64,000 nt of DNA. Source: an uncultured Treponema sp. (GTDB taxonomy: Bacteria; Spirochaetota; Spirochaetia; Treponematales; Treponemataceae). A program made the translations under genes and the position numbers. The notes beneath the pieces are model-generated. The model worked only from the letters and a program-made list of their open reading frames with translations. It did no database searches and had not been told where the DNA came from. The number at the start of each line of letters is the position of its first letter. The first letter of the stretch is position 1. Below are positions 1 to 9,676 of the stretch, in pieces. The DNA lies in the NCBI GenBank assembly GCA_946410085.1, contig CAMJZA010000009.1, positions 1 to 64,000 on the forward strand. The letters are read 5' to 3'.

Positions 1-313
1 GCACCAGTTCCGTAAAAAGGTCATAGAAAACCGAGCAGTCCCGGGTGTTGTTTGCGTAGGAGATGGAGCTGCGCTTTATTTCCCTGTCGAGCCCGAGATG
101 ATAGGTTATGCCCCTGTTCCTGCGGAACGCTTCTTCGATACTGCGGAGCCCGTTTGCATCCGTTATCTGGGCGTACAGCATCGCCCCAAACTGCATCCAA
201 GAGGCGTTCCCGTTGCAGTATTTGTCGGATTCATGGCTTTTTACCAGCGCGTCAAACCGAGATCTCCCCACGGCCTCTAGTATTTGTCCGAATAATGTGT
301 TATACTTGTTCAT
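1..313 (-). mobile_element. IS4-type transposase with DUF4372 N-terminus (truncated by window start)
   Basis: Reverse-strand translation from ATG at 313: MNKYNTLFGQILEAVGRSRFDALVKSHESDKYCNGNASWMQFGAMLYAQITDANGLRSIEEAFRRNRGITYHLGLDREIKRSSISYANNTRDCSVFYDLFTELV..., typical DUF4372/IS4 N-terminus; open to the window edge. Confidence 0.85.
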
Positions 314-793
314 GTCTGTAATTCCTTATGTGATACAGTCTTGTGTGGTAACTAAACTATATCACGAATTACAGACTTTAAACTATACTAATTCATTTTG
401 GACAGTAGTGAGAAAAAATATATTACACGGGAACGAAAAAACAGTGGGCAGCGGTGATTACAGGCATTGACTGGCATCGAGATATACCAGCAAAAAGTGT
501 AACTATTATCAAACAGAATTAACGTGAATGTGTTCTCAGAAATATGATGTATTTCATGGCTGCACATCCCCTGTTTGAGATTCCAGACTCGATTAAAGAA
601 ATTGGAAGCTGAACTTTTTGTGTTTGTTCTTCATTATGCGATGAAACTAAGGCAAAATTGAAGACACTTGGTTATAACGGATTATTTTAACTAACAGTCA
701 CGATGCTTATCTGTGGGAAACAATTTGTCAAAAATCAATCTTCTTGACAAATTGACCTGTCTAATCTATTTTTATTGTTGGAGGAATTGATTT

Positions 794-1018
794 ATGACAA
801 GCACTTACACGGTAAGACCTTCAGAGCTTACGCTTGATTTTATACACGCAATCCAAGCCATGTTCAAGGATAAGGAGATTGAAATCAACATACATGAGGT
901 AGCAGATGAAACGGATTATCTCCTTTCATCCCCTGCGAACAAAAAACATCTCCTTGAATCTATCTCTGAATTGAAAAAACGTGAGAATCTCGTCAGTATA
1001 GAGGAAGGGGCACTGTGA
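794..1018 (+). CDS. Type II antitoxin, RelB/YefM-like, paired with YoeB
   Basis: Small acidic protein directly upstream of and overlapping (ATGA-like, 4 bp) a YoeB toxin; RBS ggagg upstream. Confidence 0.7.
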   Translation: MTSTYTVRPSELTLDFIHAIQAMFKDKEIEINIHEVADETDYLLSSPANKKHLLESISELKKRENLVSIEEGAL

Positions 1019-1272
1019 TTGTTTCGTTTACTCAGCCAGCCTTTGAGGATTACCAGAATTGGGCGAAGGATGACAAGGCCGTTTTTAAGAAGATAAACAG
1101 CCTGATAAAGGAAATCCTGCGGACTCCCTTTACTGGGACTGGGAAACCGGAGCCACTTAAACACGAGCTTTCTGGTTTTTGGTCGCGGAGGATTACAGAA
1201 GAACACCGTCTGGTTTACAAGGTCGAAAAAGATGAGCTTCTGATTATCTCCTGCAAATATCATTATGAGTAA
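1015..1272 (+). CDS. yoeB: Txe/YoeB family toxin (mRNA endoribonuclease)
   Basis: 85 aa: FTQPAFEDYQNWAKDDKAVFKKINSLIKEILRTPFTGTGKPEPLKHELSGFWSRRITEEHRLVYKV...LLIISCKYHYE; canonical YoeB motifs including C-terminal HYE. Confidence 0.93.
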   Translation: MIVSFTQPAFEDYQNWAKDDKAVFKKINSLIKEILRTPFTGTGKPEPLKHELSGFWSRRITEEHRLVYKVEKDELLIISCKYHYE

Positions 1273-1318
1273 AGTCGGAAAAAGGGTTCGTTAGAGCCGT
1301 CCATGAACTTTCAACGCC

Positions 1319-1489
1319 TCAAGCATAATCTGCCTGTCTTTTTTTGTGTTCCTCAACAATCCAGACCTTAAACTCTTCGCATTCCTTGTCCAGCTCCGTA
1401 AAGTCGGGCTTAGGCGTGTGAAGGATGTAATTATAAAGAGAATCAGCTTTTTCACGTGCTTCCAGCATTTCTTCGGTAATACAGTGCAT
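1319..1489 (-). CDS. Small hypothetical protein (56 aa)
   Basis: SD ggaggt upstream of internal ATG (MHCITEEMLEAREKADSLYNYILHTPKPDFTELDKECEEFKVWIVEEHKKRQADYA). Confidence 0.45.
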   Translation of the reverse strand: MHCITEEMLEAREKADSLYNYILHTPKPDFTELDKECEEFKVWIVEEHKKRQADYA

Positions 1490-1563
1490 ACAAGACCTCC
1501 AGACATTACTATACCACAGTTTTTTTGAAGAAGTCATCGTTCAACTTGTTGGCATGATTACAG

Positions 1564-1820
1564 TTGGTCTTTCTCTTGACAATCAGGGGAATGCATTGTA
1601 TATATAAAAATATGGGGTACAACCGTGCAGACGTAATCGCAGAAAAGGAGCGGATAATAATCCTACCCCAAAAGAAATCTCTTGACGACATGCTGACTTT
1701 GGTCACTCCTGACAACATCCATTCAGAGACTGCGACAGGGAATTCAGTTGGGAAGGAAGCATGGTAGGCATGGGGAATGCTCCTAAAGTTGTTGAGAATA
1801 TAAAGTTGCTCATTGAATGA
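1564..1820 (+). pseudogene. Decayed MazEF-like locus: MazE C-terminal half followed by about the last 15 codons of a MazF-like reading frame
   Basis: NRADVIAEKERIIILPQKKSLDDMLTLVTPDNIHSETATGNSVGKEAW* is a MazE-type C-terminus lacking the AbrB half; it is followed by MGNAPKVVENIKLLIE* (1770-1820), resembling a MazF C-terminus. Confidence 0.5.
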
Positions 1821-1848
1821 ATTCGGTGATACACAAGAGGTGATTGGA

Positions 1849-3195
1849 ATGAACGAAATCAAACCGGTGAAAATGGGCTTATACCTGCAGGGCAGGAGCG
1901 AGGCGTGCCTGCGTGGAGGTTTTGACAGGGCGATGGGAGCGGTGCGCGACTCGGATATAGACATACTGGTGCTTCCGGAGTTCTCGCATGTTCCTTTTGA
2001 AGAGGACTTTCACAAGGCGGATTTGCTGAACAAACAGGCTTTGAATGCCATATACGAAAAGACCTTAGAGTTCAGTCGGAGCCTGGGCCGGGCTGTCGTC
2101 ATCTGCAATTACGATAAAAAAGGAATGATTATGAGCGTCTGGGCCAATGCATTTGCCAGCGATGGTGAGACCACGTGCAAAAGCTATATCAAACACACGA
2201 TGACCGGCTGGTCCGCCTGCCAGCTGGACGACTACCCGGCTTATGCGGAGGAAGCTTTTGCTCCAATACTTTTCAAAGGACATAAAATCGGCATGACGGC
2301 CTGCTTCGACTGCAATCATGCGGTGTTCAGCAGGAAATACGGCCTGAACGGGGCGGACATCCTCATCAACTGCACGGGTGGGGATGTTGAAAAGGATAAG
2401 TGGTACAAGTACAACAAAATCCGCGCCATGGAGAACTCCTGCTTCAGCTTTGTGACAATGGGGCACCTGTGGCAGAAGAGCGGCAGCAAATCTGGAAACT
2501 ACGTTTTTGGCTTTACGCCGACGGGGAAGGAGATGGTTCCCGTCCTGCTCAACGGAAATGACCGGGGGCGGCGGAATTTTCCTGACGGAGTATATGTATA
2601 CGACACGGCGCAGGATGACAGGCAGTTTGAGACTGATCCCCGCGCACGGCAGCAGGAAAAACCTAACAAGAATGAGGACGTGTCCATCTCGACTGACGGA
2701 ATCATGGACTTTTACATGAAGGGGCGGGAAGTCAAGGCGGGACTCCGTATCTTTCAGGTCAATGGTGTCAACCTTGTCATGTGCCTCATCGAAGGGGATG
2801 CCATCCTGAAGCCGGAAAGCGTCCTCAAACTTCTGTATGCACGCGAACTTGCAGACATTCCGAACAAGAAATACCTTATAATCAACAGGTGGAATACGGT
2901 GGACAGAGACTTCTATGAAAAGCAGCTGTCCCTCATATTGAAGGTGCACACCATGCAGAATTTCTGCGCTGTCATACTGACCTCAGACAACATGGTCAAG
3001 TGCTTTCAGGCCACTGATTGCAAGAATGCGCAGGTCATTCCCGCTGTCGCAGGAGAACTGGGGCTTGACCTGAATAGAATGGGCGGGCCAGAGACTATTT
3101 GGAAGAATCGTACGTATGGTGTTAAGGGAACTCTTGAGACGTACATGAAGAAAGCCTGGCGTAAGAATGTCGAATGGCTTGTCGAAAGCTTATGA
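1849..3195 (+). CDS. Carbon-nitrogen hydrolase (nitrilase-fold) protein with ~180 aa C-terminal extension
   Basis: Glu (LPEF), Lys (YIKH) and Cys (ACFDCNHAVFSRKYGLNGADILIN) catalytic motifs; SD gaggtg before ATG 1849; the ORF-track start at 1813 is an upstream TTG. Confidence 0.85.
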   Translation: MNEIKPVKMGLYLQGRSEACLRGGFDRAMGAVRDSDIDILVLPEFSHVPFEEDFHKADLLNKQALNAIYEKTLEFSRSLGRAVVICNYDKKGMIMSVWANAFASDGETTCKSYIKHTMTGWSACQLDDYPAYAEEAFAPILFKGHKIGMTACFDCNHAVFSRKYGLNGADILINCTGGDVEKDKWYKYNKIRAMENSCFSFVTMGHLWQKSGSKSGNYVFGFTPTGKEMVPVLLNGNDRGRRNFPDGVYVYDTAQDDRQFETDPRARQQEKPNKNEDVSISTDGIMDFYMKGREVKAGLRIFQVNGVNLVMCLIEGDAILKPESVLKLLYARELADIPNKKYLIINRWNTVDRDFYEKQLSLILKVHTMQNFCAVILTSDNMVKCFQATDCKNAQVIPAVAGELGLDLNRMGGPETIWKNRTYGVKGTLETYMKKAWRKNVEWLVESL

Positions 3196-3749
3196 CGGAC
3201 TTTTTCATGAAAAGTCAGCTGGGAAAACCGGCACTCCCTGACGAGCTGGAACAGAAAATCCGTAACCTGGTAGATAAATCCCTCCGCCAGCTGGAAGAGA
3301 ACAACCGCTGTCTGGACCTGTATAAAGAATACAGGTCGCTCACGGTCGAGCAGGTTCTCATGCTTAGTTACGGCGTATACGAAGATGCCCTGAATGAGAT
3401 ACGGGGCCGTAACGAAATCCAGTTTGCCGATCTGCTCAGGTCAGCCCGTGATGCTAAAGGTCTGACCGACGTCGAGCTGTACAAATCTGCTGGTCTAAGC
3501 AAGCAAGTCTATTCCAAGATAATGTCTGGTAAGTGCATTCCCAGCCGCGAAAGCGTTATAGCCCTTGCCGTTGCCCTCGGACTGGGGATTTATGAGGTAA
3601 ATGCTTTGCTCAAGACAGCGGGCTACTGCTTCCTGCCCTCCGATACGCTCTCCAAGCTTGCCAGAAACAGCATCCAGATGAAGAAGAATCTGGATGAACT
3701 GAACGACCTTTTGGATCAGGCTGGGCTTCCTGTCCTTGGCAGTAAGTAG
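3192..3749 (+). CDS. XRE-type HTH protein, translationally coupled to the nitrilase
   Basis: ATGA overlap at 3192-3195; HTH: FADLLRSARDAKGLTDVELYKSAGLSKQVYSKIMSGKCIPSRESVIALAVALGLGIYEVNALLKTAGY. Confidence 0.85.
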   Translation: MTDFFMKSQLGKPALPDELEQKIRNLVDKSLRQLEENNRCLDLYKEYRSLTVEQVLMLSYGVYEDALNEIRGRNEIQFADLLRSARDAKGLTDVELYKSAGLSKQVYSKIMSGKCIPSRESVIALAVALGLGIYEVNALLKTAGYCFLPSDTLSKLARNSIQMKKNLDELNDLLDQAGLPVLGSK

Positions 3750-3928
3750 CATGTAGGATTATACTTTACGCCCTTTTTAAGAATTCTCATTGTCTCGTTC
3801 GAACCGCTAAAATCTCCGTAAAAGTCGCTTGGCAGTTTACCACAGTAAGCCTTTTTTCCTGTACTATGGCATCAGGCTGTTGAATCTGACAGTTCGCTTA
3901 TAAAATACCTGTTGGCACGGAGGTTTCT

Positions 3929-4276
3929 ATGAAGGTATTGGAAATGCCCGAACAGTTTGGTGGAGAAATGCGTTCCATCGGAGAGTTAATTGCGTTGGCA
4001 AGTTATGAGGGGTCCTGCTATAGTAGACGGAAGAAAAAGAAATGCGGTGGAGAGCAGTGTAAGAATTGCCCCTATGGTGAAGCTCATAGGTTAAAGGGAG
4101 CATTGGACCCCTATCAAAGGGTCTGGGTTGATTATCAGGTTGAGAAGCAGGAAGCAGCCTGTAGAGTTACGGCAGAGGATGTTGCAGATTTTATAGGAGA
4201 TGCAATGGGATTACTTATTCCTGCTGCACTATTGGGTGCATTTGTTTGGTTTATATGGTGGATGTTTACGAGGTAG
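3929..4276 (+). CDS. Hypothetical protein with Cys cluster and C-terminal TM segment
   Basis: SD cggagg; CGGEQCKNCPYGEAHRLKG motif, then LLIPAALLGAFVWFIWWMF. Confidence 0.6.
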   Translation: MKVLEMPEQFGGEMRSIGELIALASYEGSCYSRRKKKKCGGEQCKNCPYGEAHRLKGALDPYQRVWVDYQVEKQEAACRVTAEDVADFIGDAMGLLIPAALLGAFVWFIWWMFTR

Positions 4277-4364
4277 AAGATGAACTTGAGTTCAAAAGCG
4301 GCATTTTTGTACCGCATTTTCTAATATGCTTTAGTATGCTTTTATTTTAGTATGGAGGAAAGCT

Positions 4365-4505
4365 ATGATGTACTGTTCATACTGCGGAAAGTTCCTTGTG
4401 AACGATGCCTTATTTTGCTATGCATGCGGGAAGAAGGTTGTTATACCAGATGCTGATGCTGTCCATTCTGATGAAGTCGTGAAAAAAAGTGTGCGGCCTC
4501 ACTGA
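4365..4505 (+). CDS. 46 aa zinc-ribbon microprotein (below the ORF-track length cutoff)
   Basis: SD tggagg; MMYCSYCGKFLVNDALFCYACGKKVVIPDADAVHSDEVVKKSVRPH*: two CxxCG knuckles. Confidence 0.65.
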   Translation: MMYCSYCGKFLVNDALFCYACGKKVVIPDADAVHSDEVVKKSVRPH

Positions 4506-4509
4506 AAAC

Positions 4510-4770
4510 ATGGCTTTCCCAGTCCTTCAGGAGCAGTTAAGGAAAATTTTAGACAAGCTGCCAGAGTCGGATCAAAAGATTATCAAGATGCGCTTTGGAC
4601 TTGAGGACGACTACACGTATACTCTCGCCGAACTTTCAGAATGTCTCAATGTGACAAGGGACGACATACGCAAGGCCGAGGCAAACGCCTTGAAACTTTT
4701 GAAACCACTAAGCGGCAGCAGGATAAGATGTTTACCTGACAAGAATTGTATTTCCCTGACGAATACGTAA
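4510..4770 (+). CDS. Stand-alone sigma-70 region 4-like protein
   Basis: LDKLPESDQKIIKMRFGLEDDYTYTLAELSECLNVTRDDIRKAEANALKLLKP matches RpoD-type region 4; regions 1-3 absent. Confidence 0.7.
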   Translation: MAFPVLQEQLRKILDKLPESDQKIIKMRFGLEDDYTYTLAELSECLNVTRDDIRKAEANALKLLKPLSGSRIRCLPDKNCISLTNT

Positions 4771-4881
4771 AATGATACGTGACAGACGGTAAGCGTTGTT
4801 CTTCAGTTCCGTTTTCTATACAATACAATGGGTACAATGGGTGCAGTGGATAGATTACGAATTCTGCGCTGGAGGTGTGAT

Positions 4882-7814: not shown

Positions 7815-8444
7815 TCAGAAGCCGAGGCAGTCGTTCACCAGAATGACGTGAATCCTGTCCTTGTGGTGGGAGAACCTCGTTATGAGGAACTGGCAGCAGA
7901 TCGTGTCGGGGGACTTGCAGTTCATGCATGCACCGGTCTTGCAGCAGGGCGTGGAAAGGCCGAATCGCTGCGCGTTTATGGGGGCGGCGACGTTCCGTGC
8001 CCGCTTCATCGCGCCGTCAACGTCCGAGCACACCTTGTTCATCCCGACGATGAAGACGACCTTCTTCGGTCCCTGTGCTATGGCGGAAACCCGGTTGGAG
8101 TTCCCGTCGATGTTCACGAGTACGCCGTCCTCGGTCATCGCGTTCACGCTGGCAAGGTACACGTCCGCATCGTAGGCCATGAGCATCGCGGCCCGCTTGT
8201 CCTCATAGGCATCCCTGTCGATGAACTTGTAGTTCCCTTTCTTGAGGAAATCGGTCAGCCCTATCTCATGCACGCTCATGCCGCCGCCCATCGTGACGCT
8301 GCTCCCCTCCGGGATAAGCTCCAGCGCCTTCTTCAGGGCCTCTTCCTTGCTCGCGGCGTAGTAGCCGCTCATGTTCCGTGATTCAAGCCCCTTGATGACC
8401 TTCTTCGCCAGAAGCTCGTTTCTCCTTGTGATGAATTCACTCAT
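7815..8444 (-). CDS. LUD-domain (LutC/YkgG, DUF162) protein
   Basis: MSEFITRRNELLAKKVIKGLESRNMSGYYAASKEEALKKALELIPEGSSVTMGGGMSVHEIGL...; strong SD aaggagagg; own promoter at 8463-8491. Confidence 0.85.
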   Translation of the reverse strand: MSEFITRRNELLAKKVIKGLESRNMSGYYAASKEEALKKALELIPEGSSVTMGGGMSVHEIGLTDFLKKGNYKFIDRDAYEDKRAAMLMAYDADVYLASVNAMTEDGVLVNIDGNSNRVSAIAQGPKKVVFIVGMNKVCSDVDGAMKRARNVAAPINAQRFGLSTPCCKTGACMNCKSPDTICCQFLITRFSHHKDRIHVILVNDCLGF

Positions 8445-9110: not shown

Positions 9111-9676
9111 TTTCCTACAATCTCCCAGTCGCGCCTGAGGAGGGCCCAGAGCGTGATGTCGATGAGCTTGCCGCGGCAGAGCTCGTAGTCCCGCATCTCT
9201 CCCTCTTTGACGAATCCCAGCCTGCCCGCGAGGGCCTGCGATGCCGTGTTCGGCGGTTCGATGAATGCCTCGATCCTGTTCATATCCGAGCTTGAGAAGG
9301 CGAAGTCCAGCACAAGCGTGAGGGCCTCGCCCATTATCCCCCTGCGCTGGTAGTTTCTGTTCAGCTCATAGCCCATCTCGGCCTTCTTGTCGTCATCGGA
9401 AAATGCGAAGAGGCCGCATGTCCCCACGAGCTTCGCGTTTTCCCGGAGCACGATGCCCCAGCGGATCATCGTCCTGTTTTTGAGGGCCTGCATGAAAAAG
9501 CGGGTCTGCCTCTCTGCCTCCTCCATGCTTTTGAACGGGAGCAGGTCGTAATAGCGCATCACCTCGCCGTCGGAGAAAATCTCGAACACATCCTCCGCGT
9601 CCCTTTCTTCCAGAGGCCGCAGGACAAGCCGCTCCGATTCCAGGACCAGATCCTTCCCGAAAAGTTCGTCCTTCAT
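9107..9676 (-). CDS. GNAT N-acetyltransferase (RimJ/RimL-like)
   Basis: LVLESERLVLRPLEERDAEDVFEIFSDGEVMRYYD...AEMGYELNRNYQRRGIMGEAL...N.ASQALAGRLGFVKEG. Confidence 0.88.
   Translation of the reverse strand: MKDELFGKDLVLESERLVLRPLEERDAEDVFEIFSDGEVMRYYDLLPFKSMEEAERQTRFFMQALKNRTMIRWGIVLRENAKLVGTCGLFAFSDDDKKAEMGYELNRNYQRRGIMGEALTLVLDFAFSSSDMNRIEAFIEPPNTASQALAGRLGFVKEGEMRDYELCRGKLIDITLWALLRRDWEIVGK

Follow-up and report, generated by a model that had tools for sequence, protein, structure and literature searches.

DRT1 is a class 3 UG/Abi reverse transcriptase (RT) with a nitrilase domain, and its nitrilase has been described as an abortive-infection effector, with oligomer formation and C-terminal gating (PMC13275509). 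The locus examined here lies at the start of contig C9 in a 3.64-Mb draft genome of an uncultured Treponema, of which 64,000 nucleotides were analyzed (the window). A gene for a nitrilase-type protein is followed there by a gene for a helix-turn-helix (HTH) protein. As in DRT1, a predicted nitrilase-fold domain with its catalytic residues kept is found in an accessory, defense-like setting. Unlike DRT1, which exceeds 1200 aa and includes the RT, the nitrilase of this module has 448 aa, a separate HTH partner, and no match in PADLOC. The parallel with DRT systems drawn in a sequence-only reading of this DNA therefore holds for the shared fold but not for membership in DRT1, which was ruled out because, as that reading had noted, no RT is present in the 448-aa protein or adjacent open reading frames (ORFs).

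Three further comparisons are relevant. HigBA-type toxin-antitoxin (TA) systems also have two coupled genes with the HTH gene second and are mobile, patchy, and located near other TA genes; their first gene, however, encodes an RelE-fold RNase of ~90 aa, whereas the first gene here encodes a 448-aa nitrilase, the HTH protein has 185 aa, and toxicity is hypothetical. Operons of macro-domain, VWA, and ADP-ribosylglycohydrolase (ARH) genes with a C-terminal HTH share the HTH domain type and the genus, but in the module a nitrilase replaces the macro domain and the HTH is encoded as its own protein. Aliphatic amidase (2uxy) probably has the same fold class, as suggested by Foldseek searches with a low-confidence model (pLDDT 52), and its catalytic-Cys region aligns with the stretch around C152; it differs in sequence (E 0.07), in the 186-aa C-terminal region of the module protein, which has no match, and in the coupled HTH gene. 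The features of the locus, in window coordinates, were as follows.

2-313, minus strand: DUF4372-domain fragment running off the contig edge (domain match)
794-1018: weakly PhdYefM-like partner of YoeB
1015-1272: YoeB toxin (131.9 bits)
1319-1537, minus strand: 72-aa ORF with no match reaching a Pfam cut-off
1564-1767: 67-aa ORF with no match reaching a Pfam cut-off
1835..1843, plus strand: Shine-Dalgarno-like sequence AAGAGGTGA, 5' of the nitrilase gene
1849..3195, plus strand: nitrilase-superfamily protein, 448 aa, with PF00795 over residues 29-201
1849..2634, plus strand: predicted catalytic nitrilase domain, with E44, K115, and C152 unchanging among relatives
2200..3150, plus strand: recently exchanged tract of ~950 bp, with 89-100% identity to the copy in genome G210 (module ends, 74-81%)
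2635..3192, plus strand: C-terminal region of ~186 aa without a sequence match or confident fold match
3192..3195, plus strand: ATGA, in which the nitrilase stop overlaps the HTH start (ATGA or GTGA in 6/6 loci)
3192..3749, plus strand: XRE/Cro-type HTH protein, 185 aa, with the HTH at about residues 77-136 from the start at 3192

The 448-aa protein scored 36.1 bits against PF00795 (CN_hydrolase; curated cut-off, 23.2) and 37.3 bits in the genome search, and passing this profile cut-off places it in the nitrilase superfamily. A 36-bp-longer ORF with a TTG start at 1813 was rejected as the start of the gene, since TTG is not the conserved start. The Glu-Lys-Cys triad that had been read as intact, E44 (LPEF), K115 (YIKH), and C152 (TACFDCNH), was invariant in all five complete copies; direct alignment with a solved amidase covered the Cys region alone, where phmmer weakly aligned the C152 stretch with 2uxy. 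The best PDB matches of the full-length model in Foldseek were nitrilase-superfamily proteins (E 7e-9), with low TM-scores for an AlphaFold2 model built from five input sequences. None of the amidase equivalog models (AmiE/AmiF) in NCBIfam matched up to E 1, and the curated near-misses were deaminated-glutathione amidase and NAD+ synthase; a direct alignment with the nitrilase domain of the genome's own NAD synthase was too poor for use. No TA toxin model in Pfam or NCBIfam and none of the families in PADLOC-DB 2.0.0 matched the protein. It represents a previously unnamed subfamily of predicted amide-cutting enzymes.

The C-terminal extension had been described as belonging to no recognized family, and this was borne out: sequence searches with the ~186 residues found nothing similar and no known enzyme, metabolic enzymes included. 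When modelled separately (pLDDT 59), the region had no confident structural relative; Foldseek matches were weak, and the best nitrilase ranked 12 (E 0.19). From the secondary structure predicted for residues 270-448, this stretch could have been a degenerate second nitrilase half, but that idea was rejected: besides the weak Foldseek matches, sequence comparison did no better than chance (74 and 136 of 1000 shuffles), and hhalign gave a probability of about 1%. A putative distant relative in another genome, G051 (E 0.002), proved to lie in a 113-aa frame of no relation, close to a gene resembling DHH-type phosphatases, and this weak match was attributed to chance. The region probably serves in oligomerization, active-site gating, or partner binding.

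The coupling of the two genes was conserved. An HTH start codon overlapping the nitrilase stop (ATGA) had been noted, and a 4-nt overlap was detected at each of the six loci where the pair occurs, as ATGA at two and GTGA at four, with that of genome G054 derived from ORF coordinates. ORF lists place the HTH start at 3174, but the start kept in all relatives is 3192. HTH_3 and HTH_31 were above cut-off (38.6 and 36.6 bits; residues 83-142 of the longer form), which identifies the predicted product as an XRE-type HTH protein; its PADLOC matches were to HTH stretches of other models only. Less similar relatives of the HTH protein are common in Treponema, with matches in 31 of the 98 genomes searched. 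Some stand alone (G058; 36-48% identity), and others form the C-terminal part of macro-domain fusions whose operons also contain VWA and ADP-ribosylglycohydrolase-like genes, where Macro and VWA were annotated by Pfam (VWA below cut-off) and ARH was assigned by eye. Conserved operons of such macro-domain-HTH fusions with VWA and/or ADP-ribosylglycohydrolase-like genes were observed across the genus (L071, L072, L073, and L080), and PADLOC gave no match for the three L071 proteins examined.

A search for an operator common to the module loci detected no 7-mer in at least four of the six upstream regions, which argues against conserved autoregulation of the module. The lack of a conserved operator is compatible with control at the protein level and gives classical autoregulation no support. 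Repeats containing TTGAAAAGTCCGC were observed just 5' of a DUF4143 ATPase gene and of the nitrilase gene (L049 4500-4628 and 7430-7478; L050 1565-1689 and 3034-3072; L044 2535-2576). The exact TTGAAAAGTCCGC motif was restricted to the module locus in genomes G147, G189, and G054, and these repeats could possibly be a shared promoter or operator.

Of the six loci, this genome accounts for two, and four further Treponema metagenome-assembled genomes (MAGs) have a single locus each. The nitrilase was carried by 5 of 200 Treponema genomes and by none of 392 other genomes sampled across the phylum. A scan of 84,980 species, which relied on two short peptide patterns that distant relatives could escape, recovered the same four foreign genomes only, and searches of plasmid, phage, and viral-contig collections yielded no homologue. 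The relatives that carry it are Treponema or uncultured Spirochaetaceae MAGs, one of them from goat rumen; the RUG/RUI genome series presumably consists of rumen genomes, and the carriers apparently all come from the rumen.

The second copy in this genome, on contig C4, had 73% (nitrilase) and 75% (HTH) identity to that in the window. Nucleotide similarity between loci extended from the nitrilase start codon to the HTH stop and was confined to the module. Across most of 2250-3150, identity to the G210 copy was 99-100%, whereas an EF-G gene of the two genomes was 77% identical (dS 1.4), and the ~950-bp tract reflects a recent exchange. Similarity limited to the module, together with this near-identical tract against a divergent EF-G gene, identifies the pair as a horizontally exchanged accessory unit. 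A dN/dS of 0.06-0.23 over the complete copies excludes chance ORFs and indicates that both genes are maintained by purifying selection. Overall, these comparisons of sequences indicate that the pair is an unnamed, mobile, recombining, and selected two-gene accessory module of Treponema. The G+C content was 51% in the module, 42-43% in both flanks (window 1-4800), and 54% in the whole window, a pattern across 1-4800 that is consistent with acquired DNA.

The neighborhood of the pair largely agreed with the sequence-only reading. The upstream fragment carries DUF4372, a domain from the N terminus of IS4-type transposases, and the YoeB TA pair was recovered with its weakly PhdYefM-like partner. 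A supposed MazEF remnant was not upheld, as the two ORFs concerned (1564-1767 and 1319-1537) were below every Pfam cut-off. No Rfam element was found in the first 6 kb of the window. Counted over the six loci alone, the surrounding units recur in changing order: YoeB TA genes in the window, C4, and G147; an SNase gene in the window, G147, and G189; an AAA ATPase with DUF4143, which PADLOC lists as candidate PDC-S01, in G147, G189, and G210; a lipoprotein and a second HTH protein in C4, G054, and G189; and a zinc-ribbon/sigma-region-4 protein in C4 and G210, which is broken in the window. The C4 locus also has DUF6884/GIY-YIG (PDC-M57A), PIN, and a second YoeB protein, and the G210 pair adjoins TerY-P-like kinase, phosphatase, and VWA genes and ZorA-/ZorB-like genes. 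No metabolic operon was seen around the pair at the six loci.

Several details of these neighborhoods were observed separately. The YoeB TA unit common to both module loci of this genome (window 721-1271 and L042 10678-11228) has 88% nucleotide identity and sharp ends. The zinc-ribbon and sigma-70 region 4 protein is intact in C4 (L042 9056-9442) and G210 (L048 10040-10492) and split over two frames in the window (4365-4770, plus strand), apparently as a pseudogene or through an assembly error. In G210, ZorA/ZorB-like motor genes immediately adjoin genes for a PP2C phosphatase, a VWA protein, a kinase, and a TerY_C zinc protein (L048 10473-17043), with no ZorC/D recognized in this interval; the set could be a hybrid of Zorya-like and TerY-P systems.

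The reading that we tentatively favor is that the pair is a conflict-type module, TA- or abortive-infection-like, in which a nitrilase effector is combined with a cognate HTH controller; a role in defense is plausible. The HTH protein would either repress the operon or keep the enzyme inactive. If this control were lost or signalled away, for example by infection or stress, the freed nitrilase would hydrolyze an essential amide-bearing metabolite and growth would be arrested, following either a toxin-first, antitoxin-second logic (a HigBA-like order) or abortive infection. This effector reading is favored because the triad is invariant under the low dN/dS; because the 4-nt-overlap pairing is kept at 6/6 loci; because the module is rare and patchy and present twice in this genome; because the loci are homologous only within the module, where the exchanged near-identical tract lies; because TA and candidate-defense neighbors recur (YoeB, PDC-S01, TerY-P with ZorAB-like genes, and PDC-M57A); and because the HTH domain type is that of macro-domain proteins in VWA/ARH operons. 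DRT1 also gives a precedent for a nitrilase effector in immunity (PMC13275509). Against it are the lack of a PADLOC match for the nitrilase, the lack of a shared operator, and the weak likeness of the C152 stretch to aliphatic amidase. The earlier proposal of a nitrilase effector with an HTH partner was thus strengthened in the conserved pairing and the recurrent neighbors, though not by any PADLOC match to the nitrilase. The further proposal of a new class of immune or addiction system, a stand-alone RT-free nitrilase effector checked by a coupled macro/VWA-type HTH protein, is more doubtful; no description of such a nitrilase-HTH pair was found in the literature. With only two proteins, naturally occurring variants, and a clear catalytic Cys open to mutation, such a module would be a simple system for finding the target metabolite of a nitrilase effector.

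The chief rival, which we consider rather unlikely, is that the pair consists of an accessory amidase, catabolic or detoxifying, and a dedicated HTH regulator, which rumen spirochaetes would carry as cargo for niche adaptation. The amidase-like Cys region, the near-misses to deaminated-glutathione amidase and NAD+ synthase, and the mixed cargo of the island (SNase, lipoproteins) all fit such an enzyme, but the pair's own operon has no transporter or metabolic gene at any locus, the homologues lie outside metabolic operons, no amidase equivalog model matched, and a coupled downstream regulator is, to our knowledge, unusual in catabolic operons. A cargo amidase would still document a mobile, recombining enzyme unit among apparently rumen spirochaetes. 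Less probable again is a regulatory or signalling pair, in which the nitrilase-fold protein would modulate the HTH protein, without killing, by editing or sensing either a protein side chain or a small molecule; the link of the HTH family to macro, VWA, and ARH-like proteins, that is, to ADP-ribose-linked functions, suggests this, yet the search gave no conserved operator or target. Simple cargo in the form of a mobile gene cassette of a chromosomal integron is very improbable and largely refuted. The genome does have an integron integrase with two attC-like sites on contig C26, and the modules reshuffle with sharp boundaries, but attC sites of the type present in this genome were found only at C26, with none flanking the module in the window or at other loci, and a cassette origin was rejected for this reason.

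Minor elements were detected in two other parts of the genome. At the C4 locus, a DUF3800-XI RNA (Rfam RF02975, 46.9 bits; L042 12825-12875, minus strand) lies between Sel1/zinc-ribbon and lipoprotein genes, and a 47-bp near-perfect palindrome (L042 11942-11988) lies between the lipoprotein and second HTH genes. On C26, the integron integrase (L057 4767-5717; 422 bits) is beside tRNA genes and the two attC-like sites (7940-8010 and 9352-9414); the contig ends within the array, where a macro-domain-like gene and a pair with a PIN-like toxin are among the cassettes.
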